From: a virus
IMG/VR virus record: IMGVR_UViG_3300028275_000422
Span: 1-36,228 of that record
Reading direction: 5' to 3' (one strand)
DNA length: 36,228 nt
Under the pieces are notes generated by a model. The model was not told the origin of the DNA and did not search any database. It was given only the letters and a program-made list of their open reading frames with translations. This document shows positions 30,443 to 36,228 of the stretch, one piece after another. Within the stretch, counting starts at the first letter, position 1. Each line of letters begins with the position of its first letter. The position numbers were made by a program, and so were the translations under genes.

Positions 30443-31524
30443 TTTAATTCAATTTGAGTTTTAATCCAGTTATAAGTTTTACGAATACCCTCTTCAAGAG
30501 TTTGAGAGTAATCCCAACCTAGTTTTTCGCGAATAAGATCATTGTTAGAATTTCGACCACGAACACCTAGAGGACCATCAATATGATTTTTTTCTACAAC
30601 TTTACCTGCGACTTTAGCAGCAGTATCTACTAGTTGATTAATAGTAACCATTTCTTCAGAACCAATATTCACAGGTCCAATAAAATCACTATCCATCAAT
30701 CTGCGGGTTGCTTCGATACATTCATCAATATACAAGAAGGAACGAGTTTGTAACCCGTCTCCCCACACCTCGATAGTTCCACCTTCCTCTGAAAGGTAGG
30801 CAACTTTACGGCAAATTGCTGCAGGAGATTTTTCCCTTCCCCCTTCCCAGGTTCCTTCAGGTCCAAAGATATTATGATACCGAGCAACCCGAACAGGGAT
30901 CCCGTGATTACGAGAATAAGCGAAAAACAACCGCTCTGAGAAGAGTTTTTCCCAACCATATTCAGAATCTGGTGCTGCGGGATATGCTGATTCTTCACGG
31001 CAATCTGGATTATTGGGATCAAGTTGATTATGTTCTGGATACATGCAAGCAGAACTAGAATAAAAGATTTTAGTCTGATAGTCTAGAACAGGTCGAACAC
31101 ATTCAGTACCATTATCTACACCATTAAAAGTTTCATTAAACTGACGCTGTGCTTCAAGAACATTAAGATTAATGGTTGCAGAGTTATGCATGATGTCTGC
31201 ATCATTTTCGCCAGTGAAAACAAATCCAGCACCACCCATATCTGCAGCAAACTGATAAATCTCATGGAAAGGGCGAATGTAACGATAAGGGACTGAATTA
31301 TAAAAATTACCCTGTTCGCCTTTGAATTCAAGGGTACATCGAACAAAACCCATGTCCCTCAAGTCTCCCAAAACAAATTCATCTGCTTCGGAAATTGAAA
31401 ACTCGGGATACTTAATATCAACTCCACGGACCCAATATCCCTCAGACTTTAATCTCTTTACCATGTGACTTCCAATGAATCCACCAGCACCTAATACAAG
31501 TGCAGTTTTCTTATAATCACTCAT
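30439..31524 (-). CDS. gme: GDP-mannose 3,5-epimerase
   Basis: A 361-aa extended SDR: LGAGGFIGS for NAD, YQFAADMGGAGFVFTGENDA, SSSACMYPEH with Cys160, and catalytic Tyr189-x3-Lys193 (SEYGWEK), then RYHNIFGPEGTWEGGREK. These are the diagnostic segments of plant-type GME, which turns GDP-mannose into GDP-L-galactose (or GDP-L-gulose). First gene of the glycan operon with its own promoter. Looks full length and intact. Confidence 0.93.
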   Translation of the reverse strand: MSDYKKTALVLGAGGFIGSHMVKRLKSEGYWVRGVDIKYPEFSISEADEFVLGDLRDMGFVRCTLEFKGEQGNFYNSVPYRYIRPFHEIYQFAADMGGAGFVFTGENDADIMHNSATINLNVLEAQRQFNETFNGVDNGTECVRPVLDYQTKIFYSSSACMYPEHNQLDPNNPDCREESAYPAAPDSEYGWEKLFSERLFFAYSRNHGIPVRVARYHNIFGPEGTWEGGREKSPAAICRKVAYLSEEGGTIEVWGDGLQTRSFLYIDECIEATRRLMDSDFIGPVNIGSEEMVTINQLVDTAAKVAGKVVEKNHIDGPLGVRGRNSNNDLIREKLGWDYSQTLEEGIRKTYNWIKTQIELK

Positions 31525-31550
31525 AGATCAATAAATTTCTCTTAGTATAT

Positions 31551-31579
31551 ATTATACAAAAAAAGAGGGGTTATGTAAA
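31551..31579 (-). promoter_or_regulatory. sigma70-type promoter of the glycan operon
   Basis: TTTACA (31579-31574), 17 bases, TATAAT (31556-31551) on the minus strand. The -35 is formed by the loop of the terminator just upstream, the same layout as at the hli operon. It would drive about 11.7 kb of overlapping glycan genes. Confidence 0.82.
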
Positions 31580-31589
31580 CCCCTCTTTT
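31557..31589 (-). terminator. Strong terminator ahead of the glycan operon
   Basis: A perfect 12-bp stem (31561-31572 with 31578-31589, 5-base loop) with T-runs on both sides, so it could stop transcription in either direction. It ends the small-gene message from 31717 upward. Confidence 0.9.
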
Positions 31590-31716
31590 GAAAATTCAGG
31601 CTCGCCACCAATTCTTTGACTGGAAATTGGAAACCAGGCGGAGAAAGAATTCCCCATCCGCACCACTTGCTCTTGAGAGAAGCAAGAAACTCATAGGGGT
31701 CATTTGACTCCACCAC
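31590..31716 (-). other. Short intergenic stretch with hairpin and doubtful 35-codon frame
   Basis: Between the 77-aa gene and the terminator is a 35-codon frame on the minus strand (MTPMSFLLLSRASGADGEFF, ending KNWWRA) and a CTTGCT/AGCAAG hairpin. Another frame is open across the whole stretch without an ATG. I see no decisive sign that either is translated; it may be untranslated leader or a decayed gene. Confidence 0.3.
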
Positions 31717-31950
31717 TTAGTTTTGAGAAACTAAGAAAAGTTGGGTTAACTTTGATATCTCGGTAATACCAAAGAATGCACATAAGAATAATACATCCCA
31801 AAGTTTTAGTTTAATAGCAAAAGGTATTGTGAGTAGTCCCCCAATAACTTTTATCATTAAACCGTATTTAAATTCTCCCCACAACATAGTTTGATAACCA
31901 ATTATAAGGAGAATGTTTCCAATCCACCGAAGCAAATCAGATTTAGACAT
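31717..31950 (-). CDS. Small membrane protein (two or three helices)
   Basis: A 77-aa protein with hydrophobic segments near residues 8-24, 31-46 and 50-62 and a short polar tail. No motif. It stands alone between conserved small genes and the strong terminator. Function unknown; inner-membrane location likely. Confidence 0.6.
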   Translation of the reverse strand: MSKSDLLRWIGNILLIIGYQTMLWGEFKYGLMIKVIGGLLTIPFAIKLKLWDVLFLCAFFGITEISKLTQLFLVSQN

Positions 31951-31998
31951 AAGGGGTTTTGCTCCCGACCAGTGCTGTTAAAGTCCATCCGTGACTAT

Positions 31999-32238
31999 TT
32001 ACTCATCATCATCTCTCACATAACAAGGAACACGATCTGGATCTAACCATTTCGCATATTCAATATCTTCCATTGCAGTAGAACATTGTAAAACATTATC
32101 AAAAAGATAAATGTCATTCCAGCGTTTGGTATACTCGTTTTGTTTTTGCATACGGTAATCAGGTTTACCGTTGATTTCAAGGATACCCGCCTCAATAAAG
32201 CGATATCCTTCTCGTTCAAGAAGAACTTTTGTCTTCAT
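31999..32238 (-). CDS. Conserved phage protein, unknown function
   Basis: A 79-aa acidic soluble protein (ends RDDDE) with several aromatic residues and no recognisable motif. ATGA overlap with the upstream 71-aa gene indicates a two-gene unit under the promoter at 32473-32501. Confidence 0.6.
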   Translation of the reverse strand: MKTKVLLEREGYRFIEAGILEINGKPDYRMQKQNEYTKRWNDIYLFDNVLQCSTAMEDIEYAKWLDPDRVPCYVRDDDE

Positions 32239-32450
32239 GCCACCTCTACAGATTCGAGATCAGCAAGAACATATTCCATAAGCATTTCATAGTCATCTAG
32301 AGGATCACCAGAGAATACTACACCTTCGTTCTCATAGTACCGACGAACCTTTTTGTAGAGTTTCGGATTCTTTACATCAAGGTAGAAGTCACCGTTTGCT
32401 GCTCCACGAAGAGTTTGGATGTCTTTCTTGAATTTTGCTGTGAGAGTCAT
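32235..32450 (-). CDS. Conserved phage protein, unknown function
   Basis: The start is set at 32450 (MTLTAKFKKDIQTLRGAANG...), just behind the promoter; the longer frame to 32501 would begin inside the promoter itself. The 71-aa protein is a mixed alpha/beta small protein with acidic C-terminus (DDYEMLMEYVLADLESVEVA). Function unknown. Confidence 0.65.
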   Translation of the reverse strand: MTLTAKFKKDIQTLRGAANGDFYLDVKNPKLYKKVRRYYENEGVVFSGDPLDDYEMLMEYVLADLESVEVA

Positions 32451-32472
32451 TGTTTTGAATGTTGACCTTAGT

Positions 32473-32501
32473 ATTATAAGGGGTTGACTTGAAGAAGTCA
32501 A
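32473..32501 (-). promoter_or_regulatory. sigma70-type promoter with palindromic -35 region
   Basis: TTGACT (32501-32496), 17 bases, TATAAT (32478-32473). A TTGACTT/AAGTCAA inverted repeat (32484-32501, 4-base loop) covers the -35, which may be an operator or attenuating hairpin. Located between the CAT tRNA and the 71-aa gene. Confidence 0.85.
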
Positions 32502-32526
32502 GGTGGACAGTAGAGTTTCTGTCCTA

Positions 32527-32599
32527 TGCTCGTCAGGGGAATCTAACCCCTCTTCGGCGCTTTATGAGAACGCTGCATTCGACAGATTGCTAGACGAGC
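32527..32599 (-). tRNA. tRNA with CAT anticodon (Ile2 or Met)
   Basis: A 73-nt cloverleaf: 7-bp acceptor (GCTCGTC/GACGAGC), a short 3-bp D-stem without the usual GG in the loop, anticodon loop CTCATAA (anticodon CAT at 32566-32564), 5-base variable loop, 5-bp T-stem AGGGG/CCCCT, discriminator A. No CCA encoded. T-even phages carry a lysidine-type tRNA-Ile2 with the same anticodon, but Met cannot be excluded. Its first ten bases overlap the end of the HNH gene. Confidence 0.85.
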
Positions 32600-33033
32600 G
32601 TTTGTAAAAATTGATTCCAAGAATTTCCATTATGGAGTTCTTGATGACAATTATGACATAAAAGATCACACTTGTCTATTTCTTCTTTTAGAGTTTCATA
32701 CTTTGTATTTCCAAATCTTCTAGCATCAAGATTTAGTTCTTTTTGTGATGGATCTCTATGATGAAAGCACAGCATTGCTGGTCTGTTTTCACCACACTGT
32801 TGACATTTTCCACCTTTATTTTGAATTGCTTCCCATTTTCTTTCATAAGAAACTCTTTTTTGTCTTTCGTAAGTGTTTCTTTGTACTTGTTTAGGTTTAT
32901 AGTTTGTGTCGTTTTTATAACGCCATCTTTGTCTACAAGCATTGCTACACCATTTTTTTAGTCGTCCTTTTGTGACTCTTTCATTTAATATATCACAACC
33001 ACAATTATGACAGGTAGATATTAAAGTAAACAT
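32590..33033 (-). CDS. HNH homing endonuclease running into the CAT tRNA
   Basis: A 147-aa protein with an N-terminal treble-clef-type zinc finger (C8/C11, C29/C33), a basic linker, and an HNH domain: C77/C80, LCFHHRDP with H91/H92 and CDLLCHNCHQELH with C126/C129 and H130. Probably a free-standing homing endonuclease. The stop codon TAG lies inside the 5' part of the CAT tRNA (10-base overlap), and an exact late promoter lies 27 bases upstream. Confidence 0.85.
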   Translation of the reverse strand: MFTLISTCHNCGCDILNERVTKGRLKKWCSNACRQRWRYKNDTNYKPKQVQRNTYERQKRVSYERKWEAIQNKGGKCQQCGENRPAMLCFHHRDPSQKELNLDARRFGNTKYETLKEEIDKCDLLCHNCHQELHNGNSWNQFLQTLV

Positions 33034-33059
33034 ATTGGTGTTATGAATATATACATAAT

Positions 33060-33067
33060 TATTTATA
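33060..33067 (-). promoter_or_regulatory. Late promoter of the HNH gene at 33033
   Basis: Exact TATAAATA on the minus strand between the Ile tRNA and the HNH start. Confidence 0.75.
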
Positions 33068-33079
33068 AAAATTATGTAA

Positions 33080-33151
33080 TGGGAATACTGGGAGTTGAAC
33101 CCAGACTAAGCCCTTATAAGGAGCCCGCTCTAACCATTAAGCTATACTCCC
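33080..33151 (-). tRNA. tRNA-Ile (anticodon TAT, most likely)
   Basis: A 72-nt cloverleaf: acceptor GGGAGTA/TATTCCC, D-arm with GG, anticodon stem GGCTC/GGGCT (two G-T pairs) and loop CTTATAA giving TAT, 4-base variable loop, T-arm CTGGG/CCCAG. Discriminator A, no CCA. The wobble-rich anticodon stem leaves a little doubt about the register. TAT would read AUA, a codon favoured by AT-rich phage genes. Confidence 0.8.
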
Positions 33152-33157
33152 CTGAAT

Positions 33158-33194
33158 CCAGATCTATAATAGCGGATCTGGAACGCTTTGTCAA
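33158..33194 (-). promoter_or_regulatory. Consensus promoter of the Ile tRNA with inverted repeat
   Basis: TTGACA (33194-33189), 17 bases, TATTAT (33171-33166), overlapping the end of the antitoxin gene. A 7-bp inverted repeat CCAGATC/GATCTGG (33158-33164, 33175-33181) brackets the -10. Confidence 0.85.
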
Positions 33195-33421
33195 GAACCT
33201 TCTTCGTGGTCGGTGTGTATTCGTATCACATCGTCGTCCACATCAGATTCTACTGCAAACTTTATGGTTTCGTTGTATGGAACAATCACTGCGCTTCTTT
33301 CTCCATCAGTAATAATAAACGATTCACCATTTTCTACTCTTTGTATTAGATTGTCAAAATCTGCTTGAAACTCTTCAACCGTAAATTTTTGGAGATCTGA
33401 AAGTTCTGGATACATTTTCAT
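33191..33421 (-). CDS. Phd/YefM-like antitoxin (orphan)
   Basis: A 76-aa protein with the Phd/YefM pattern: FTVEEFQADFDNLIQRVENGESFIITDG (the first 18 or so residues being the classic helix-turn start), a beta hairpin ERSAVIVPYNE and an acidic C-terminus that would wrap a toxin. No toxin gene lies beside it; neighbours are tRNA genes. It may neutralise a host toxin during infection or repress transcription (inference). Confidence 0.75.
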   Translation of the reverse strand: MKMYPELSDLQKFTVEEFQADFDNLIQRVENGESFIITDGERSAVIVPYNETIKFAVESDVDDDVIRIHTDHEEGS

Positions 33422-33439
33422 AAAGTGAAGTTTTATGAG

Positions 33440-33513
33440 TCGGGGTGACAGGATTCGAACCTGCGACCCTCTGCTCCCAAAGCAGATGCGCTACCAAGCT
33501 GCGCTACACCCCG
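33440..33513 (-). tRNA. tRNA-Pro (TGG)
   Basis: A 74-nt canonical cloverleaf: acceptor CGGGGTG/CACCCCG, D-arm GCGC/GCGC with GG, anticodon stem TCTGC/GCAGA, loop TTTGGGA (anticodon TGG), T-arm GCAGG/CCTGT, discriminator A, no CCA encoded. Confidence 0.95.
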
Positions 33514-33630
33514 TTACTTGTTTTTGTGTATGTACATAATACCAGCAAAAGGTACAACTGTCAATCCCATTCCACAAAGAAAAAGAAAGAAAGGACTTGC
33601 TGCTAGGGTTTCAACCAAGTGGAAAATCAT
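33514..33630 (-). CDS. 38-aa membrane peptide abutting tRNA-Pro
   Basis: Frame MIFHLVETLAASPFFLFLCG..., with one long hydrophobic helix and a KNK tail. ATGA overlap with the upstream 64-aa gene; its TAA ends exactly one base before the tRNA-Pro 5' end. This tight packing supports a real gene. Function unknown. Confidence 0.55.
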   Translation of the reverse strand: MIFHLVETLAASPFFLFLCGMGLTVVPFAGIMYIHKNK

Positions 33631-33821
33631 CTTCCTCTCCAGTTCTTGTATTCATAATACATGTATTGGTCAACTTCGTCAAGTCCTTGTAAAGGGGCGT
33701 TAACATTCCAAATAGACCATTCTTTGCAAAACTGTTTAATATCTATATTGTTTACAATATTGTGCCCATACATTCTCACAAAAGAAGACATTGCAAAATT
33801 GTATCTTTGTTTATTTGACAT
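33627..33821 (-). CDS. Small soluble phage protein, unknown function
   Basis: Starts at MSNKQRYNFAMSSF (33821), 64 aa; a longer frame begins two codons upstream. Aromatic-rich, with a tyrosine-heavy C-terminus (QYMYYEYKNWRGR). The 30-codon gene overlaps its start by 11 bases. No motif. Confidence 0.55.
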   Translation of the reverse strand: MSNKQRYNFAMSSFVRMYGHNIVNNIDIKQFCKEWSIWNVNAPLQGLDEVDQYMYYEYKNWRGR

Positions 33822-33903
33822 ATGCATAATTAAGTCCCCAATAAATCCACAAACTAATTGTAGAAAAATATATTAAGGATAATACAAAAAGTGTTTTAGT
33901 CAT
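33811..33903 (-). CDS. 30-aa single-helix membrane peptide
   Basis: MTKTLFVLSLIYFSTISLWI followed by YWGLNYAYVK: one hydrophobic helix, aromatic at its end. It begins inside the last codons of the 37-aa gene (8-base overlap) and ends inside the start of the 64-aa gene. Coupling suggests it is translated. Unknown function. Confidence 0.4.
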   Translation of the reverse strand: MTKTLFVLSLIYFSTISLWIYWGLNYAYVK

Positions 33904-34009
33904 CTTCTTCGTCCTCGTAAGTTGATGGTTCTTCAAAGAGTTCATCCATTTTCTGTTGAAAAACTCTTTGGTATAGTTCTTGTAAGTCTTCTTCGGTGAA
34001 TCTTACCAT
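33896..34009 (-). CDS. 37-aa acidic small protein
   Basis: MVRFTEEDLQELYQRVFQQK followed by a Glu/Asp-rich tail ending YEDEEDD. A GAGAGA ribosome site overlaps the upstream stop region. Probably a helical, acidic micro-protein. Function unknown. Confidence 0.5.
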   Translation of the reverse strand: MVRFTEEDLQELYQRVFQQKMDELFEEPSTYEDEEDD

Positions 34010-34014
34010 TCTCT

Positions 34015-34215
34015 CTATAAGGATATTTTTAACCAGGGTAATAGAGGAGGAATAACACCAACTAATCTTAAAAGTCCCTCAGCAAATAAAGCAAGAACCA
34101 CCCAACCGACGCACATACTAATGATAGAAGCATTACGGTTGTGTCTTCTGATAGCATCATCGATCATCTCCTGAACTTCAGAACGGGTAATAAACTCTTC
34201 TTGTTCGTGCATCAT
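34015..34215 (-). CDS. Small membrane protein, unknown function
   Basis: A 66-aa protein: charged N-terminus (EEFITRSEVQEMIDDAIRRH) then two hydrophobic stretches (about 30-50 and 53-66). ATGA overlap with the 49-codon gene upstream. Function unknown. Confidence 0.6.
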   Translation of the reverse strand: MMHEQEEFITRSEVQEMIDDAIRRHNRNASIISMCVGWVVLALFAEGLLRLVGVIPPLLPWLKISL

Positions 34216-34361
34216 TTCTCGTCTCCAAGAAACTTTGCAAGAGGATCTTTGCGGGTTTTTAAAATCTCACATGCTCTATAATAAAACATATTATTGGTGT
34301 TACCAGAGGCTTCAAAAGTTGCCTTGATCTTCACCCAATTTTCATAGGTGTGTTGATCCAT
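34212..34361 (-). CDS. 49-aa small soluble protein
   Basis: Starts MDQHTYENWVKIKATFEASG and ends DPLAKFLGDEK. Protein-like, helical; Cys31 is the only cysteine. Its stop overlaps the next start (ATGA). First gene of a chain of six tiny genes leading to tRNA-Pro. Too short for common gene-calling thresholds. Confidence 0.6.
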   Translation of the reverse strand: MDQHTYENWVKIKATFEASGNTNNMFYYRACEILKTRKDPLAKFLGDEK

Positions 34362-34381
34362 AGGTTTGTCCCTGTGATACT

Positions 34382-34414
34382 ATTATATACTAATCACAGA
34401 CACTTCAAAGTCAA
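34382..34414 (-). promoter_or_regulatory. Possible promoter of the micro-gene chain
   Basis: TTGACT (34414-34409) and TATAAT (34387-34382) are present, but 21 bases apart; a TTGAAG with 15-base spacing and a TATATA -10 are alternatives. Suboptimal, so only a suggestion. The rest of 34415-34474 shows nothing definite. Confidence 0.4.
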
Positions 34415-34474
34415 CTTTTTGTGTTCATATCGTAACACTGTTGAAGAAATTATTAAATTTGTAAGTTATCTTAA

Positions 34475-34557
34475 CGGAAAGAACAGGAATCGAACCTGCG
34501 AGGGCGTTAACCCCAGCCGCTTTCAAGGCGGTGTCCTCGACCAACCGGACTCTTTCC
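34475..34557 (-). tRNA. tRNA-Ser (TGA)
   Basis: An 83-nt class II tRNA: acceptor GGAAAGA/TCTTTCC, discriminator G, long variable arm (16 bases with a GGG/CCC pairing), anticodon loop CTTGAAA giving TGA, T-arm GCAGG/CCTGT. The anticodon stem has four pairs and an outer A/C mismatch. No CCA encoded. Confidence 0.93.
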
Positions 34558-34567
34558 AGTAATAGGT

Positions 34568-34819
34568 TCAACGAACCTCAAAATCCAAACGCTTTACTTT
34601 GCGTTGGCGTCTTGCCTCTTGCCAGGCAATATCTTGTGAAGTCAGAACATTTGATTTTTGTTCTTTCTGAATAGAGTTTAGCATAACAATACGAGATAAG
34701 TCAACTGCTGAAACTTTATCTCCACGGATCGTTGCCATATTAGGACATCCACAAGTGACTGTTTTTGATGGGTGTCCTGTTAATTCTTTATTGCAATCTT
34801 TGCATCTTATTGAAATCAT
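34568..34819 (-). CDS. Zinc-ribbon-like conserved phage protein
   Basis: An 83-aa protein with CKDC (6-9) and C-x-C (23-25) in the first 26 residues, able to hold a small zinc ribbon, then a basic helical C-terminus (ARRQRKVKRLDFEVR). Similar proteins occur in cyanomyoviruses (recollection). Possibly nucleic-acid or protein binding. Confidence 0.65.
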   Translation of the reverse strand: MISIRCKDCNKELTGHPSKTVTCGCPNMATIRGDKVSAVDLSRIVMLNSIQKEQKSNVLTSQDIAWQEARRQRKVKRLDFEVR

Positions 34820-34834
34820 TATTCTTCATCCTAT

Positions 34835-35269
34835 TCATTGTAAGTGAGACCTTAACATCCAAATAAACTTACCGTGAGACTCCATCAAATCTTGAACTAG
34901 ATTAGCAGTTGCATATTGCTTTTGTGCTTCGGATTCCTCTGAAATCTCTTGCATCATTTCACAAAACTTTTCATTATTTTCAAGAAGTTCTTGAAGCATT
35001 TCTCTTGCTCCAGATGAACTTGCTGCTTCTTTGATTTGAGTTACCTCAAGCATTCTCGAAAGAGAACTGAGAGGTTTTACATTCAAATAACGCATATGTT
35101 CTGAGAGACGATCGATCTCTTCAAACATAGTCTCATACTGACCACCAAAAAGTTGATGGAGTTGAGTAAAGTCTTCACCTACAACATTCCAGTGAAATGC
35201 CCAAGTTTTATGGAATAAAACAAAAAGCGATGACTGTGCATCACTCAAGAGTTTATAAAGTTTTTCCAT
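34835..35269 (-). CDS. Dps-like ferritin family protein
   Basis: A 144-aa four-helix protein with the Dps signature HWNVVGEDFTQLHQLFGGQY and the intersubunit ferroxidase set His26, His38, Asp53, Glu57, with spacing identical to bacterial Dps (12, 15, 4). Dps oxidises and stores iron and protects DNA. There is no Lys-rich DNA-binding tail, so iron/peroxide detoxification is the likelier role. A late-like GATAAATA precedes it and tRNA-Val lies upstream. Confidence 0.85.
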   Translation of the reverse strand: MEKLYKLLSDAQSSLFVLFHKTWAFHWNVVGEDFTQLHQLFGGQYETMFEEIDRLSEHMRYLNVKPLSSLSRMLEVTQIKEAASSSGAREMLQELLENNEKFCEMMQEISEESEAQKQYATANLVQDLMESHGKFIWMLRSHLQ

Positions 35270-35288
35270 TATACTCTTTTTTTATTTT

Positions 35289-35296
35289 TATTTATC
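35289..35296 (-). promoter_or_regulatory. Late-like promoter of the Dps gene
   Basis: GATAAATA on the minus strand, 20 bases before the ATG and just behind the tRNA-Val 3' end; same one-base variant as at psbD. Confidence 0.5.
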
Positions 35297-35299
35297 AAG

Positions 35300-35372
35300 T
35301 GGGAGCAGAGGGATTCGAACCCCCGACATTCTGCGTGTAAAGCAGACGCTGCTACCGCTGAGCTATGCTCCC
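35300..35372 (-). tRNA. tRNA-Val (TAC)
   Basis: A 73-nt cloverleaf: acceptor GGGAGCA/TGCTCCC, anticodon stem TCTGC/GCAGA, loop TTTACAC giving TAC, T-arm GGGGG/CCCTC, discriminator A. The D-stem is slightly irregular. Its first 21 bases are also the last codons and stop of the HNH gene. Confidence 0.93.
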
Positions 35373-35783
35373 GTATTTAGGATGCCCACCGTTTTTATAT
35401 CTTCCACCTCTACTCTTATTTGGAGGTTGAGTTTTAAGAGAGTGGCAATTTGGACAGAGAACCTGCAAATTGCTTGGCGAATGATTAAATGGGTCATCGT
35501 CAATATGGTCGATTTCTAATGGAACTTTACCAGTATGGATATTAGTTCCAGACCAACCACATTTAGAGCACTTGTGTAGTGCTTCCTCCAAAAGATAGTT
35601 TCTTACATATTGCGATAAATTGTAAGAAGAACCACCTGAAACTAAACCTTGTTTCCATTCAGTAATATACTGATTTCTTGTGTGTTCTTGTTGACATTTG
35701 TTGTTACAATACTTACCTCTTTTATGATAAGGATTGTAAGTAAATATCGTAGAACAATTTAAACAAGTAGCGGTTTGTTTCAT
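35352..35783 (-). CDS. HNH homing endonuclease running into tRNA-Val
   Basis: A 143-aa protein with an N-terminal zinc finger (C7/C10, C26/C30) and an HNH domain: C72/C75, LEIDHIDDDP (Asp92-His93), Asn105, CPNCHSLK (C110/C113, His114). Same architecture as the HNH at 32590. The last seven codons including the stop lie in tRNA-Val. Exact late promoter 22 bases upstream. Likely a free-standing homing endonuclease whose target may be near a tRNA gene. Confidence 0.88.
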   Translation of the reverse strand: MKQTATCLNCSTIFTYNPYHKRGKYCNNKCQQEHTRNQYITEWKQGLVSGGSSYNLSQYVRNYLLEEALHKCSKCGWSGTNIHTGKVPLEIDHIDDDPFNHSPSNLQVLCPNCHSLKTQPPNKSRGGRYKNGGHPKYGSIAQR

Positions 35784-35804
35784 CAGTTTAGTAGAACACT
35801 TTAT

Positions 35805-35812
35805 TATTTATA
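35805..35812 (-). promoter_or_regulatory. Late promoter of the HNH gene at 35783
   Basis: Exact TATAAATA on the minus strand, inside an imperfect inverted repeat (GTAGAA/TTCTAC). Confidence 0.75.
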
Positions 35813-35826
35813 AGGTATTCTACTAA

Positions 35827-35898
35827 CTCCCCCGACAAGATTCGAACTTGTGACCTGGAAATTAACAGTTTCTCGCGCTACCGCTGCGCCACAGGGGA
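35827..35898 (-). tRNA. tRNA-Asn (GTT)
   Basis: A 72-nt cloverleaf: acceptor TCCCCTG/CGGGGGA, discriminator G, D-arm GCGC/GCGC with GG, anticodon loop CTGTTAA giving GTT, T-arm ACAAG/CTTGT. The anticodon stem has four pairs with an outer mismatch. No CCA. Confidence 0.92.
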
Positions 35899-35903
35899 AT
35901 AAG

Positions 35904-35923
35904 TGTAGGTGAACCAACCTACA
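35904..35923 (-). other. Hairpin between tRNA genes
   Basis: A perfect 7-bp stem TGTAGGT/ACCTACA with 6-base loop between tRNA-Asn and the next tRNA-like gene; no T-run. It may be a processing or spacer structure of the tRNA precursor. Confidence 0.4.
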
Positions 35924-35954
35924 GTTTAGAGATTGCTCTCAAGGTCTTTTATGT

Positions 35955-36027
35955 GCCTCTGGCTGGGAATCGAACCCAGTATCCAACTCCTTTGTCAGGG
36001 TGTCCTTACCAATAGACTACGCAGAGG
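35955..36027 (-). tRNA. Irregular tRNA-like gene (possible Val-GAC or decayed tRNA)
   Basis: A 73-nt sequence with a good T-arm (CTGGG/CCCAG, loop TTCGATT), GTC/GAC D-stem with GG in the loop, and a six-pair acceptor CCTCTG/CAGAGG with a C/C mismatch and discriminator C. The anticodon arm is poor: ACACC/GGAGT with an A/A mismatch and an eight-base loop CTGACAAA. The best reading is GAC with an expanded loop, but a pseudo-tRNA is as likely. Confidence 0.5.
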
Positions 36028-36031
36028 AAAT

Positions 36032-36128
36032 GGGAAGTATTAGAGGACTTCCCAGCAAGGGTGATCAATCCCTTGACCTATGAGAGTCCCATAGGATTTA
36101 GTTGGCGTCTTTCTATGCTATCTGCATA
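36032..36128 (-). ncRNA. Four consecutive hairpins between tRNA genes
   Basis: Stems at 36032-36053 (7 bp), 36057-36074 (5 bp), 36077-36095 (6 bp) and 36114-36128 (5 bp), all perfect, in a 97-base gap without an ORF. None has a terminator U-tract. It could be a structured spacer, a remnant tRNA or a small RNA cut out with the tRNAs. Confidence 0.35.
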
Positions 36129-36140
36129 ACGACTACCAAG

Positions 36141-36212
36141 AGCGAAAGACGAGATTCGAACTCGCAACAACCTGCTTGGAAGGCAGGGACTCTACCGTTG
36201 AGTTACTTTCGC
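36141..36212 (-). tRNA. tRNA-Gly (TCC)
   Basis: A 72-nt canonical cloverleaf: acceptor GCGAAAG/CTTTCGC, D-arm ACTC/GAGT with GG, anticodon stem CCTGC/GCAGG and loop CTTCCAA giving TCC, T-arm GCGAG/CTCGT, discriminator T, no CCA. Confidence 0.95.
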
Positions 36213-36228
36213 AATGAGACAATCATAA

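Follow-up and report, generated by a model that had tools for sequence, protein, structure and literature searches.

A probable HNH homing-endonuclease cassette lodged against a viral tRNA-Val gene

Why would a nuclease gene end inside the tRNA gene that follows it? The question is raised by a stretch of viral DNA of 36,228 nucleotides (nt) (IMG/VR record IMGVR_UViG_3300028275_000422, positions 1 to 36,228; hereafter the window), which among annotated records is closest by coverage to T4-like cyanophages such as S-SRM01 and RN05-S (very near records may be omitted) and in which two HNH nuclease genes, gene 1 and gene 2, each run into a tRNA gene. Gene 2, our main concern here, is placed between tRNA genes and has a late-promoter-like box; its open reading frame (ORF), the ARAGORN call and the sequence agree on the 21-base overlap with tRNA-Val that had been claimed for it. 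The frame has no stop codon of its own ahead of tRNA-Val, and its TAG stop is the TAG of the D-loop of that tRNA. We find that a cassette of promoter, hairpin and HNH gene is inserted precisely where two tRNA genes adjoin, abutting tRNA-Val at its 5' end, and we regard the unit as probably a free-standing HNH homing-endonuclease cassette, which would then be capable of cleavage and mobile.

An HNH cassette between adjacent tRNA genes

In related phages that lack the HNH genes the paired tRNAs are only 0-4 bp apart, and the cassette was therefore inserted exactly against the tRNA. At the empty gene 2 site of locus L161, tRNA-Asn and tRNA-Val are adjacent (1 bp after the CCA), and comparison with an occupied site (L007) aligns the two flanks over 309 nt (79%) and 299 nt (80%), with 4 bp between them. 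Other empty gene 2 sites share left flanks of 205 nt (L201), 77 nt (L145) and 29 nt (L186) with the window; tRNA-Val starts 0-1 bp after the CCA of tRNA-Asn in such sites, and tRNA-Ile and tRNA-Met are likewise 0-1 bp apart in the empty gene 1 sites (L033 and L211). Alleles with and without the gene thus exist at one exact site between conserved flanks, as for homing endonucleases. All 73 positions of tRNA-Val are identical in the window and in the empty site of L161, so that the intact tRNA alone cannot tell donor from recipient. As a separate observation, tRNA-Asn carries CCA in the empty sites L145, L186, L201 and L161 and not in the occupied sites examined that have tRNA-Asn upstream; the insertion therefore replaced its encoded CCA (35820-35826 (-)).

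The original prediction had named one outcome as fatal to its rule, namely overlap no commoner than gene packing predicts, and a survey returned the opposite. At least 120 contigs were sampled blind to HNH genes, with a DNA pattern of tRNA-Val derived from the window and RN05-S sequences; every tRNA called in 212 loci was paired with the nearest upstream ORF on its strand, tRNAs that agreed throughout their first 40 nt and the 60 nt upstream were merged, and ORFs of at least 100 amino acids (aa) that ended -45 to +60 nt from the tRNA were counted. HNH labels came from BLAST cluster 0 and a motif search, and one overlapping gene counted as non-HNH (L062) is HNH-like by eye. Within the blind loci the tRNA was overlapped by 22 of 27 HNH genes vs 8 of 59 others (p=1.4e-9), and across all 212 loci by 42 of 55 vs 11 of 77; when genes were clustered at 50% identity, at least half of the members overlapped in 14/19 HNH clusters vs 10/58 other clusters (p=1.2e-5). 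Given these counts, tRNA overlap is a strong mark of HNH genes, though other genes show it too. The tRNAs against which the cluster 0 HNH genes lie are of 11 kinds. All 50 members of a family beside tRNA-Ser (by eye that of the window's phrog_8074 protein) stop 2-12 nt ahead of the tRNA. Non-HNH genes in L102, L168 and L175, which by eye resemble CpeT, end 21-26 nt inside tRNA-Val.

Together with the empty sites, the survey enrichment bears out the claim that HNH genes tend to enter just upstream of tRNAs. The rule built on it, by which such genes use tRNA sequence as their last codons, stands in part: the anchoring to tRNAs is real, the borrowed codons look like a by-product, some non-HNH genes overlap tRNAs as well, and the scope was drawn too narrowly, relatives also lying after a tRNA, on the other strand or inside a split tRNA.

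Table 1. Features of the two HNH units in the window.
Feature	Coordinates	Strand	Source or remark
tRNA-Met(cat), shares 10 nt with gene 1	32527..32599	(-)	ARAGORN
HNH nuclease gene 1, 147 aa	32590..33033	(-)	ORF list; PHROG HNH, E=6e-22
Leader inverted repeat of gene 1, TACATAATT/AATTATGTA	33052..33078	(-)	identical sequence in L152
Late-promoter-like box of gene 1, TATAAATA	33060..33067	(-)	sequence
tRNA-Ile(tat), left neighbour of gene 1	33080..33151	(-)	ARAGORN; adjoins tRNA-Met directly in empty sites
tRNA-Val(tac)	35299..35372	(-)	ARAGORN; Rfam tRNA 35300..35372, 66 bits
Overlap of gene 2 and tRNA-Val, 21 nt from the tRNA 5' end (six last codons and TAG stop)	35352..35372	(-)	
HNH nuclease gene 2, 143 aa, ATG start	35352..35783	(-)	ORF list; PF01844; PHROG HNH; AlphaFold2 model
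Leader inverted repeat TAGTAGAATAC/GTGTTCTACTA, flanking the promoter box of gene 2	35789..35825	(-)	
Late-promoter-like box of gene 2, TATAAATA, in the loop of the leader inverted repeat	35805..35812	(-)	sequence
tRNA-Asn(gtt), left neighbour of gene 2	35826..35899	(-)	ARAGORN; adjoins tRNA-Val directly in empty sites

The protein, its leader and its relatives

The product of gene 2 has the nuclease domain of HNH, a known homing-endonuclease family, matching Pfam PF01844 (E=5e-6) and the HNH group of PHROGs (E=7e-17). Its AlphaFold2 model has a mean predicted local distance difference test score (pLDDT) of 82, and the best matches among solved folds are the HNH enzymes ScoMcrA (E=2.6e-3) and EcoKMcrA, none at E<=0.001; H93, N105, C7, C10, C26, C30, C72, C75 and C110 are invariant in 28 aligned rows, and C113 is nearly so. 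Gene 1, whose stop coincides with bases 8-10 of tRNA-Met, reaches HNH in Pfam at E=0.67 only. The two proteins have, as had been predicted, a like layout by eye (N-terminal Cys pairs, then HNH) and differing sequences, BLASTP finding no meaningful similarity between them while PHROGs call both HNH.

The predicted identity of their late promoters likewise holds in the sequence, TATAAATA lying 29 nt before the ATG of gene 2 and 34 nt before that of gene 1. The 8-mer is not rare by itself (5 in the window vs 2.95 expected; at least 5 in 11 of 100 shuffles); a late promoter NATAAATA has been reported for cyanophage S-PM2 (PMC2984593). Standard pairs fill 91% of the paired cells in 12 gene 2 leaders, a degree of pairing, and likewise a covariation score, that none of 500 shuffles equalled; the number of two-sided changes was reached by 8/500 shuffles, and two coarser counts by 53/500 and 45/500. 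An ORF of at least 50 aa follows 163 of 205 TATAAATA boxes, and a repeat with the late promoter nested in it, called at p<0.05 against dinucleotide shuffles, is present in 27 of 68 leaders of endonuclease genes (labels assigned by eye) vs 3 of 95 others. The pattern was spotted first and then tested on overlapping data. The alternative that the leader repeat is a general feature of late promoters was rejected on the count of 3/95. Both window copies appear to have their own late promoter and hairpin leader in the style of T4 endonucleases, and a T4 review describes late promoters that by-pass hairpins for I-TevI to III, segB and mobE of Aeh1 (PMC2988022). The nested form is missing from many relatives, and a conserved leader hairpin sought in the bacterial loci L408-L461 was not found as a general feature.

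Some leaders hold remnants of tRNAs, those of L009 and L012 starting with a tRNA-Val 5' half that ends after the D-arm. A consensus search of 252 loci, outside called tRNAs, found 7 such 5'-half stubs in 39.6 kb of HNH leaders vs 10 in 836 kb elsewhere (p=5e-6), and in a mismatched-tRNA test 6 of 123 comparisons with the own tRNA scored at least 9 vs 5 of 984 with other tRNAs (3 and 3 at a score of at least 10). Because by eye the stubs of L009, L012 and L414 are not copies of the downstream tRNA, they suggest that the stub is the old tRNA and that the whole one was brought by the cassette; the stubs of L014 and L066 match the downstream tRNA over their first 9-10 nt.

Searches of viral contigs gave 75 loci for gene 2 and 13 for gene 1, many of them near copies and not independent events. 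Each of the 21 closest relatives of gene 2 (81-100% identity) runs into tRNA-Val, 18 of them by 21 nt, 2 by 10 nt and 1 by 6 nt, and all 13 gene 1 relatives overlap tRNA-Met by 10 nt. When loci with identical 200-nt ends were dropped (75 to 45), the nearest tRNA within 300 nt of the gene 2 relative was tRNA-Val in 15, tRNA-Thr in 7 and another tRNA in 10. Two further HNH families, picked since overlap had been seen in them, so that only their distant members are a fresh test, overlap the tRNA in 28 of 58 distinct loci (beside tRNA-Asn, best 80 of 140 relatives) and 26 of 52 (beside tRNA-Pro, best 80 of 104), with 6 more in each family ending 0-60 nt before one; of the 240 rows behind this count, which also took in the bacterial relatives described below, 48 were left out as duplicates, 1 for a contig end and 3 for open ORFs. 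A tree of 131 rows requires 27 changes of the tRNA label ('none' included; intron-bearing calls accepted only if tRNA-Thr), vs 50 after shuffling, and unites the Val rows in a single clade of 14 (Shimodaira-Hasegawa-like approximate likelihood ratio test, 87); the tree has few columns, leaves 65 of 128 inner branches open and omits identical proteins, proteins shorter than 80 aa and loci L072-L075 and L223.

In bacteria the gene 2 family keeps company with tRNA-Thr. When one genome per species was searched with the gene 2 alignment, 485 relatives came up, and among the best 80 (79 once a locus with identical 200-nt ends was dropped) tRNA-Thr lies within 300 nt, before or after the ORF, in 71 of 79 distinct loci; 16 of the 71 rest on split tRNA-Thr calls by ARAGORN, other split tRNAs not having been accepted, which leans the count towards tRNA-Thr. 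Without the intron reading, 34 of 78 have a tRNA -38 to +60 nt from the stop, in every case tRNA-Thr, and 19 overlap it. As a control, 88 Pfam HNH matches were taken from 20 of the bacterial genomes, and the 30 matches that had loci were examined: a tRNA lies within 300 nt of 12 of 13 gene 2 relatives (one tRNA-Leu; mostly loci already counted above) vs 2 of 17 other HNH genes, and these two, which overlap tRNA-Ser and tRNA-His, are weakly similar to the gene 2 family. Among the additional HNH genes of genomes with gene 2 relatives (L473, L489 and L479), one shares 24 nt with tRNA-Ser, one shares 15 nt with tRNA-His and one lies 2 nt from tRNA-Leu.

In 13 of 22 loci examined, ARAGORN with introns permitted reads tRNA-Thr as interrupted at base 37 by 206-244 nt; in 2 more the interruption is 624 nt long and holds the ORF. 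The tRNA-Thr(TGT) of Clostridia-like genomes (L385, L386, L389, L392 and others) is read as split at base 37, and its insert, roughly 206-244 nt long, goes unrecognised by Rfam. The window copy does not lie inside a tRNA intron, and among relatives only two are so read: that of L394, whose sequence puts it within an insert that interrupts a tRNA-Thr at the anticodon loop, and that of L463, placed inside a split tRNA-Thr by ARAGORN. The same label is doubtful for L462, one of the 16 loci counted on split calls, which does have a whole tRNA-Thr 34 nt before its ORF; a tRNA-Gly intron call in L407 is taken as doubtful. A split tRNA-Thr that holds the ORF would be the classic setting of a homing endonuclease. 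In the window itself Rfam finds no intron within 31500-36228 and a whole tRNA-Val; gene 2 is free-standing, inteins not having been searched for.

How the cassette may move, and rival readings

The inserted unit comprises the late-promoter-like box within its inverted repeat and the HNH gene; as it brings no stop, the frame enters the tRNA and ends at whatever stop the conserved tRNA bases provide (8-10 or the D-loop TAG). On the reading of gene 2 as part of a homing cassette, the enzyme would nick or cut relatives that lack the HNH gene, within the tRNA gene or next to it, and repair would then copy the cassette in. The stubs in some leaders suggest that entry may be into the tRNA itself, after the D-arm, a whole tRNA being restored downstream from the copy that the cassette carries. 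Since tRNA-Val is identical in the window and in an empty site, self-protection would probably come from splitting a target that spans the tRNA junction.

Several observations weigh against this reading. The next 13 gene 2 relatives (53-54% identity; L022-L034) all have their own stop and no overlap, there is no overlap in 30/58 loci of the Asn family and 26/52 of the Pro family, and no tRNA lies within 300 nt at 13 of the 45 distinct viral gene 2 loci; kinship inflates the raw counts. The nested repeat is present in just 5 of 17 endonuclease clusters (vs 2 of 51 other clusters, p=0.009). The stubs are few, and L009 and L012 had been seen before the test (p=0.0004 without both). Group I introns, as which the inserts in tRNA-Thr were considered, were not called by Rfam in 16 bacterial loci at the gathering score, nor in 3 at E<=1.

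Could the overlap itself be what is selected? A single transcript would then yield either the HNH protein or the mature tRNA, the RNase P cut at the tRNA 5' end stripping the HNH stop and so limiting a harmful nuclease, or else the tail would be needed for activity. This is in keeping with overlap being far commoner in HNH genes than in other genes beside tRNAs, with the 10-nt overlap kept throughout the gene 1 family, many near copies included, and with the holding down of T4 endonucleases after transcription (PMC2988022). However, the tRNA-coded residues 138-143 of gene 2 fall in the unordered tail of the model (residues 121-143 below a pLDDT of 50), tail sequence and frame vary even among the 21 closest relatives, some relatives, L053-L055 among them, finish near residue 117, and many others end 0-60 nt before the tRNA or come after it. 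A functional role of the tRNA-coded codons, which the original prediction had thought worth testing, is thus unsupported; the tail is probably incidental, because it differs between close relatives and is predicted to be disordered, and we consider selection for the overlap unlikely.

A second alternative is that the HNH protein acts on tRNA and not on DNA, as a tRNA-cutting weapon or a processing enzyme beside its tRNA. The Septu system, which requires the HNH motif of PtuB, cleaves tRNA-Tyr (PMC13096335), and most bacterial members examined accompany one tRNA species; yet exact insertion with empty sites fits a DNA-level mobile element, the promoter-hairpin leader is common to other endonuclease genes and some relatives lie inside a split tRNA gene, which makes this alternative very improbable. 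Ordinary compact packing, by which any gene before a tRNA in a dense array would run into it, can draw on the non-HNH overlappers such as those of L102, L168 and L175, and is hardly credible against the survey counts, which reject it, the family that always stops short of tRNA-Ser and the anchoring of the bacterial relatives examined to tRNA-Thr.

Known systems, significance and neighbouring features

The nearest working parallel to the proposed homing cassette is SegB of T4 and T6, a free-standing endonuclease gene between tRNA-Arg and tRNA-Ile with a predicted late promoter and hairpin control, whose product makes breaks inside tRNA genes (PMC2988022, PMC13096335). SegB is a GIY-YIG enzyme, whereas gene 2 is HNH, and the portions of these papers that treat SegB describe no tRNA overlap (PMC2988022, PMC13096335). 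On the other strand the SegB motif RAWTSGAAC would read like the conserved T-arm GTTCGAATC; the terms T-arm, T loop and TPsiC were sought in the text of the SegB paper and not found. Unlike SegB, the gene 2 family is also present in bacterial genomes, beside tRNA-Thr.

Intron-encoded tRNA endonucleases share the specificity for a tRNA gene, two gene 2 relatives lying in a split tRNA-Thr, but the window gene is in no intron. Bonocora and Shub are said to have described in 2001 the endonuclease encoded by a tRNA intron, that of tRNA-fMet, which is reportedly not of the HNH family. MobA-E of T4 resemble gene 2 as free-standing HNH genes between host genes; the sites listed for them lie between protein genes, and segC, segF, mobA and mobC overlap the upstream ORF by 11-24 bp (PMC2988022), at the gene start and not, as here, at the end with a tRNA. 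Collaborative (trans) homing places an endonuclease beside an endonuclease-less intron (PMC3984707), and in Clostridia-like loci the HNH gene adjoins a tRNA-Thr with an ORF-less insert, for which splicing and cleavage are putative; the arrangement in the window is another one. Mycobacterial tRNA clusters hold HNH genes that were proposed to move tRNAs (PMC6582537); like the window genes they lie inside a tRNA cluster, and the sections of that paper dealing with them describe neither overlap nor exact insertion. No description of tRNA-overlapping HNH genes or of an HNH family tied to tRNA-Thr was found in the passages of open-access articles consulted.

What looked like the curiosity of one phage becomes a testable rule, that of an HNH nuclease family which, in phages as in bacteria, keeps to particular tRNA genes. 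The rule also offers a mechanism by which the tRNA genes of phage arrays are moved and rewritten. This is of consequence since tRNAs carried by phages can counter defences that cut tRNA, and SegB of T6 helps the phage to amplify such a tRNA (PMC13096335). More tentatively, and with less than even confidence, tRNA genes may serve a broad class of HNH elements as points of entry, in phage and bacterial genomes alike, the elements inserting just after the D-arm, rebuilding the tRNA from a carried copy and leaving a 5'-half stub in the leader. One family would have kept to tRNA-Thr (its ORF inside a split tRNA-Thr in Bacilli, the neighbour of a split one in Clostridia, and of an intact one in phages and Patescibacteria), with a shift to tRNA-Val in cyanophages; at each move the 5' half of the recipient's tRNA would be replaced; HNH elements would, if so, remodel tRNA genes.

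The loci also point to an annotation gap, HNH ORFs that overlap tRNAs, or their tRNAs, being unlisted in phage records. Fourteen annotated phage loci were hand-picked from 60 listed matches of 189 (RN05-S and avDM5 for the tRNA under the match): tRNA-Thr is nearest in 9 of the 14, and the records of RN05-S, avDM5, MET_P1-88 and iF6 (4/14) list no coding sequence for the tRNA-overlapping HNH ORF. The DSL-LC03 record lists the HNH gene and not the tRNA, as does that of S-SRM01 around its relative of gene 1. In S-SRM01 this tRNA-Ile/HNH/tRNA-Met unit (59% protein identity) adjoins baseplate and tail-fibre genes, outside the main tRNA region, and no HNH gene is annotated beside tRNA-Val.

Other features on the same strand of the window were noted in passing. 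A Phd-like antitoxin gene (33191-33421 (-)) was found by PHROG search, and a wcaG RNA motif (Rfam RF01761, 98 bits) lies at 31594-31694 (-). A tRNA at 34475-34558 (-), not called by ARAGORN, scores 43.7 bits with the Rfam tRNA-Sec model (cut-off 47 bits) and by eye resembles tRNA-Ser(TGA). A tRNA whose identity is undecided lies at 35955-36027 (-); its anticodon is called as four bases (gaca), and the anticodon loop may be enlarged.
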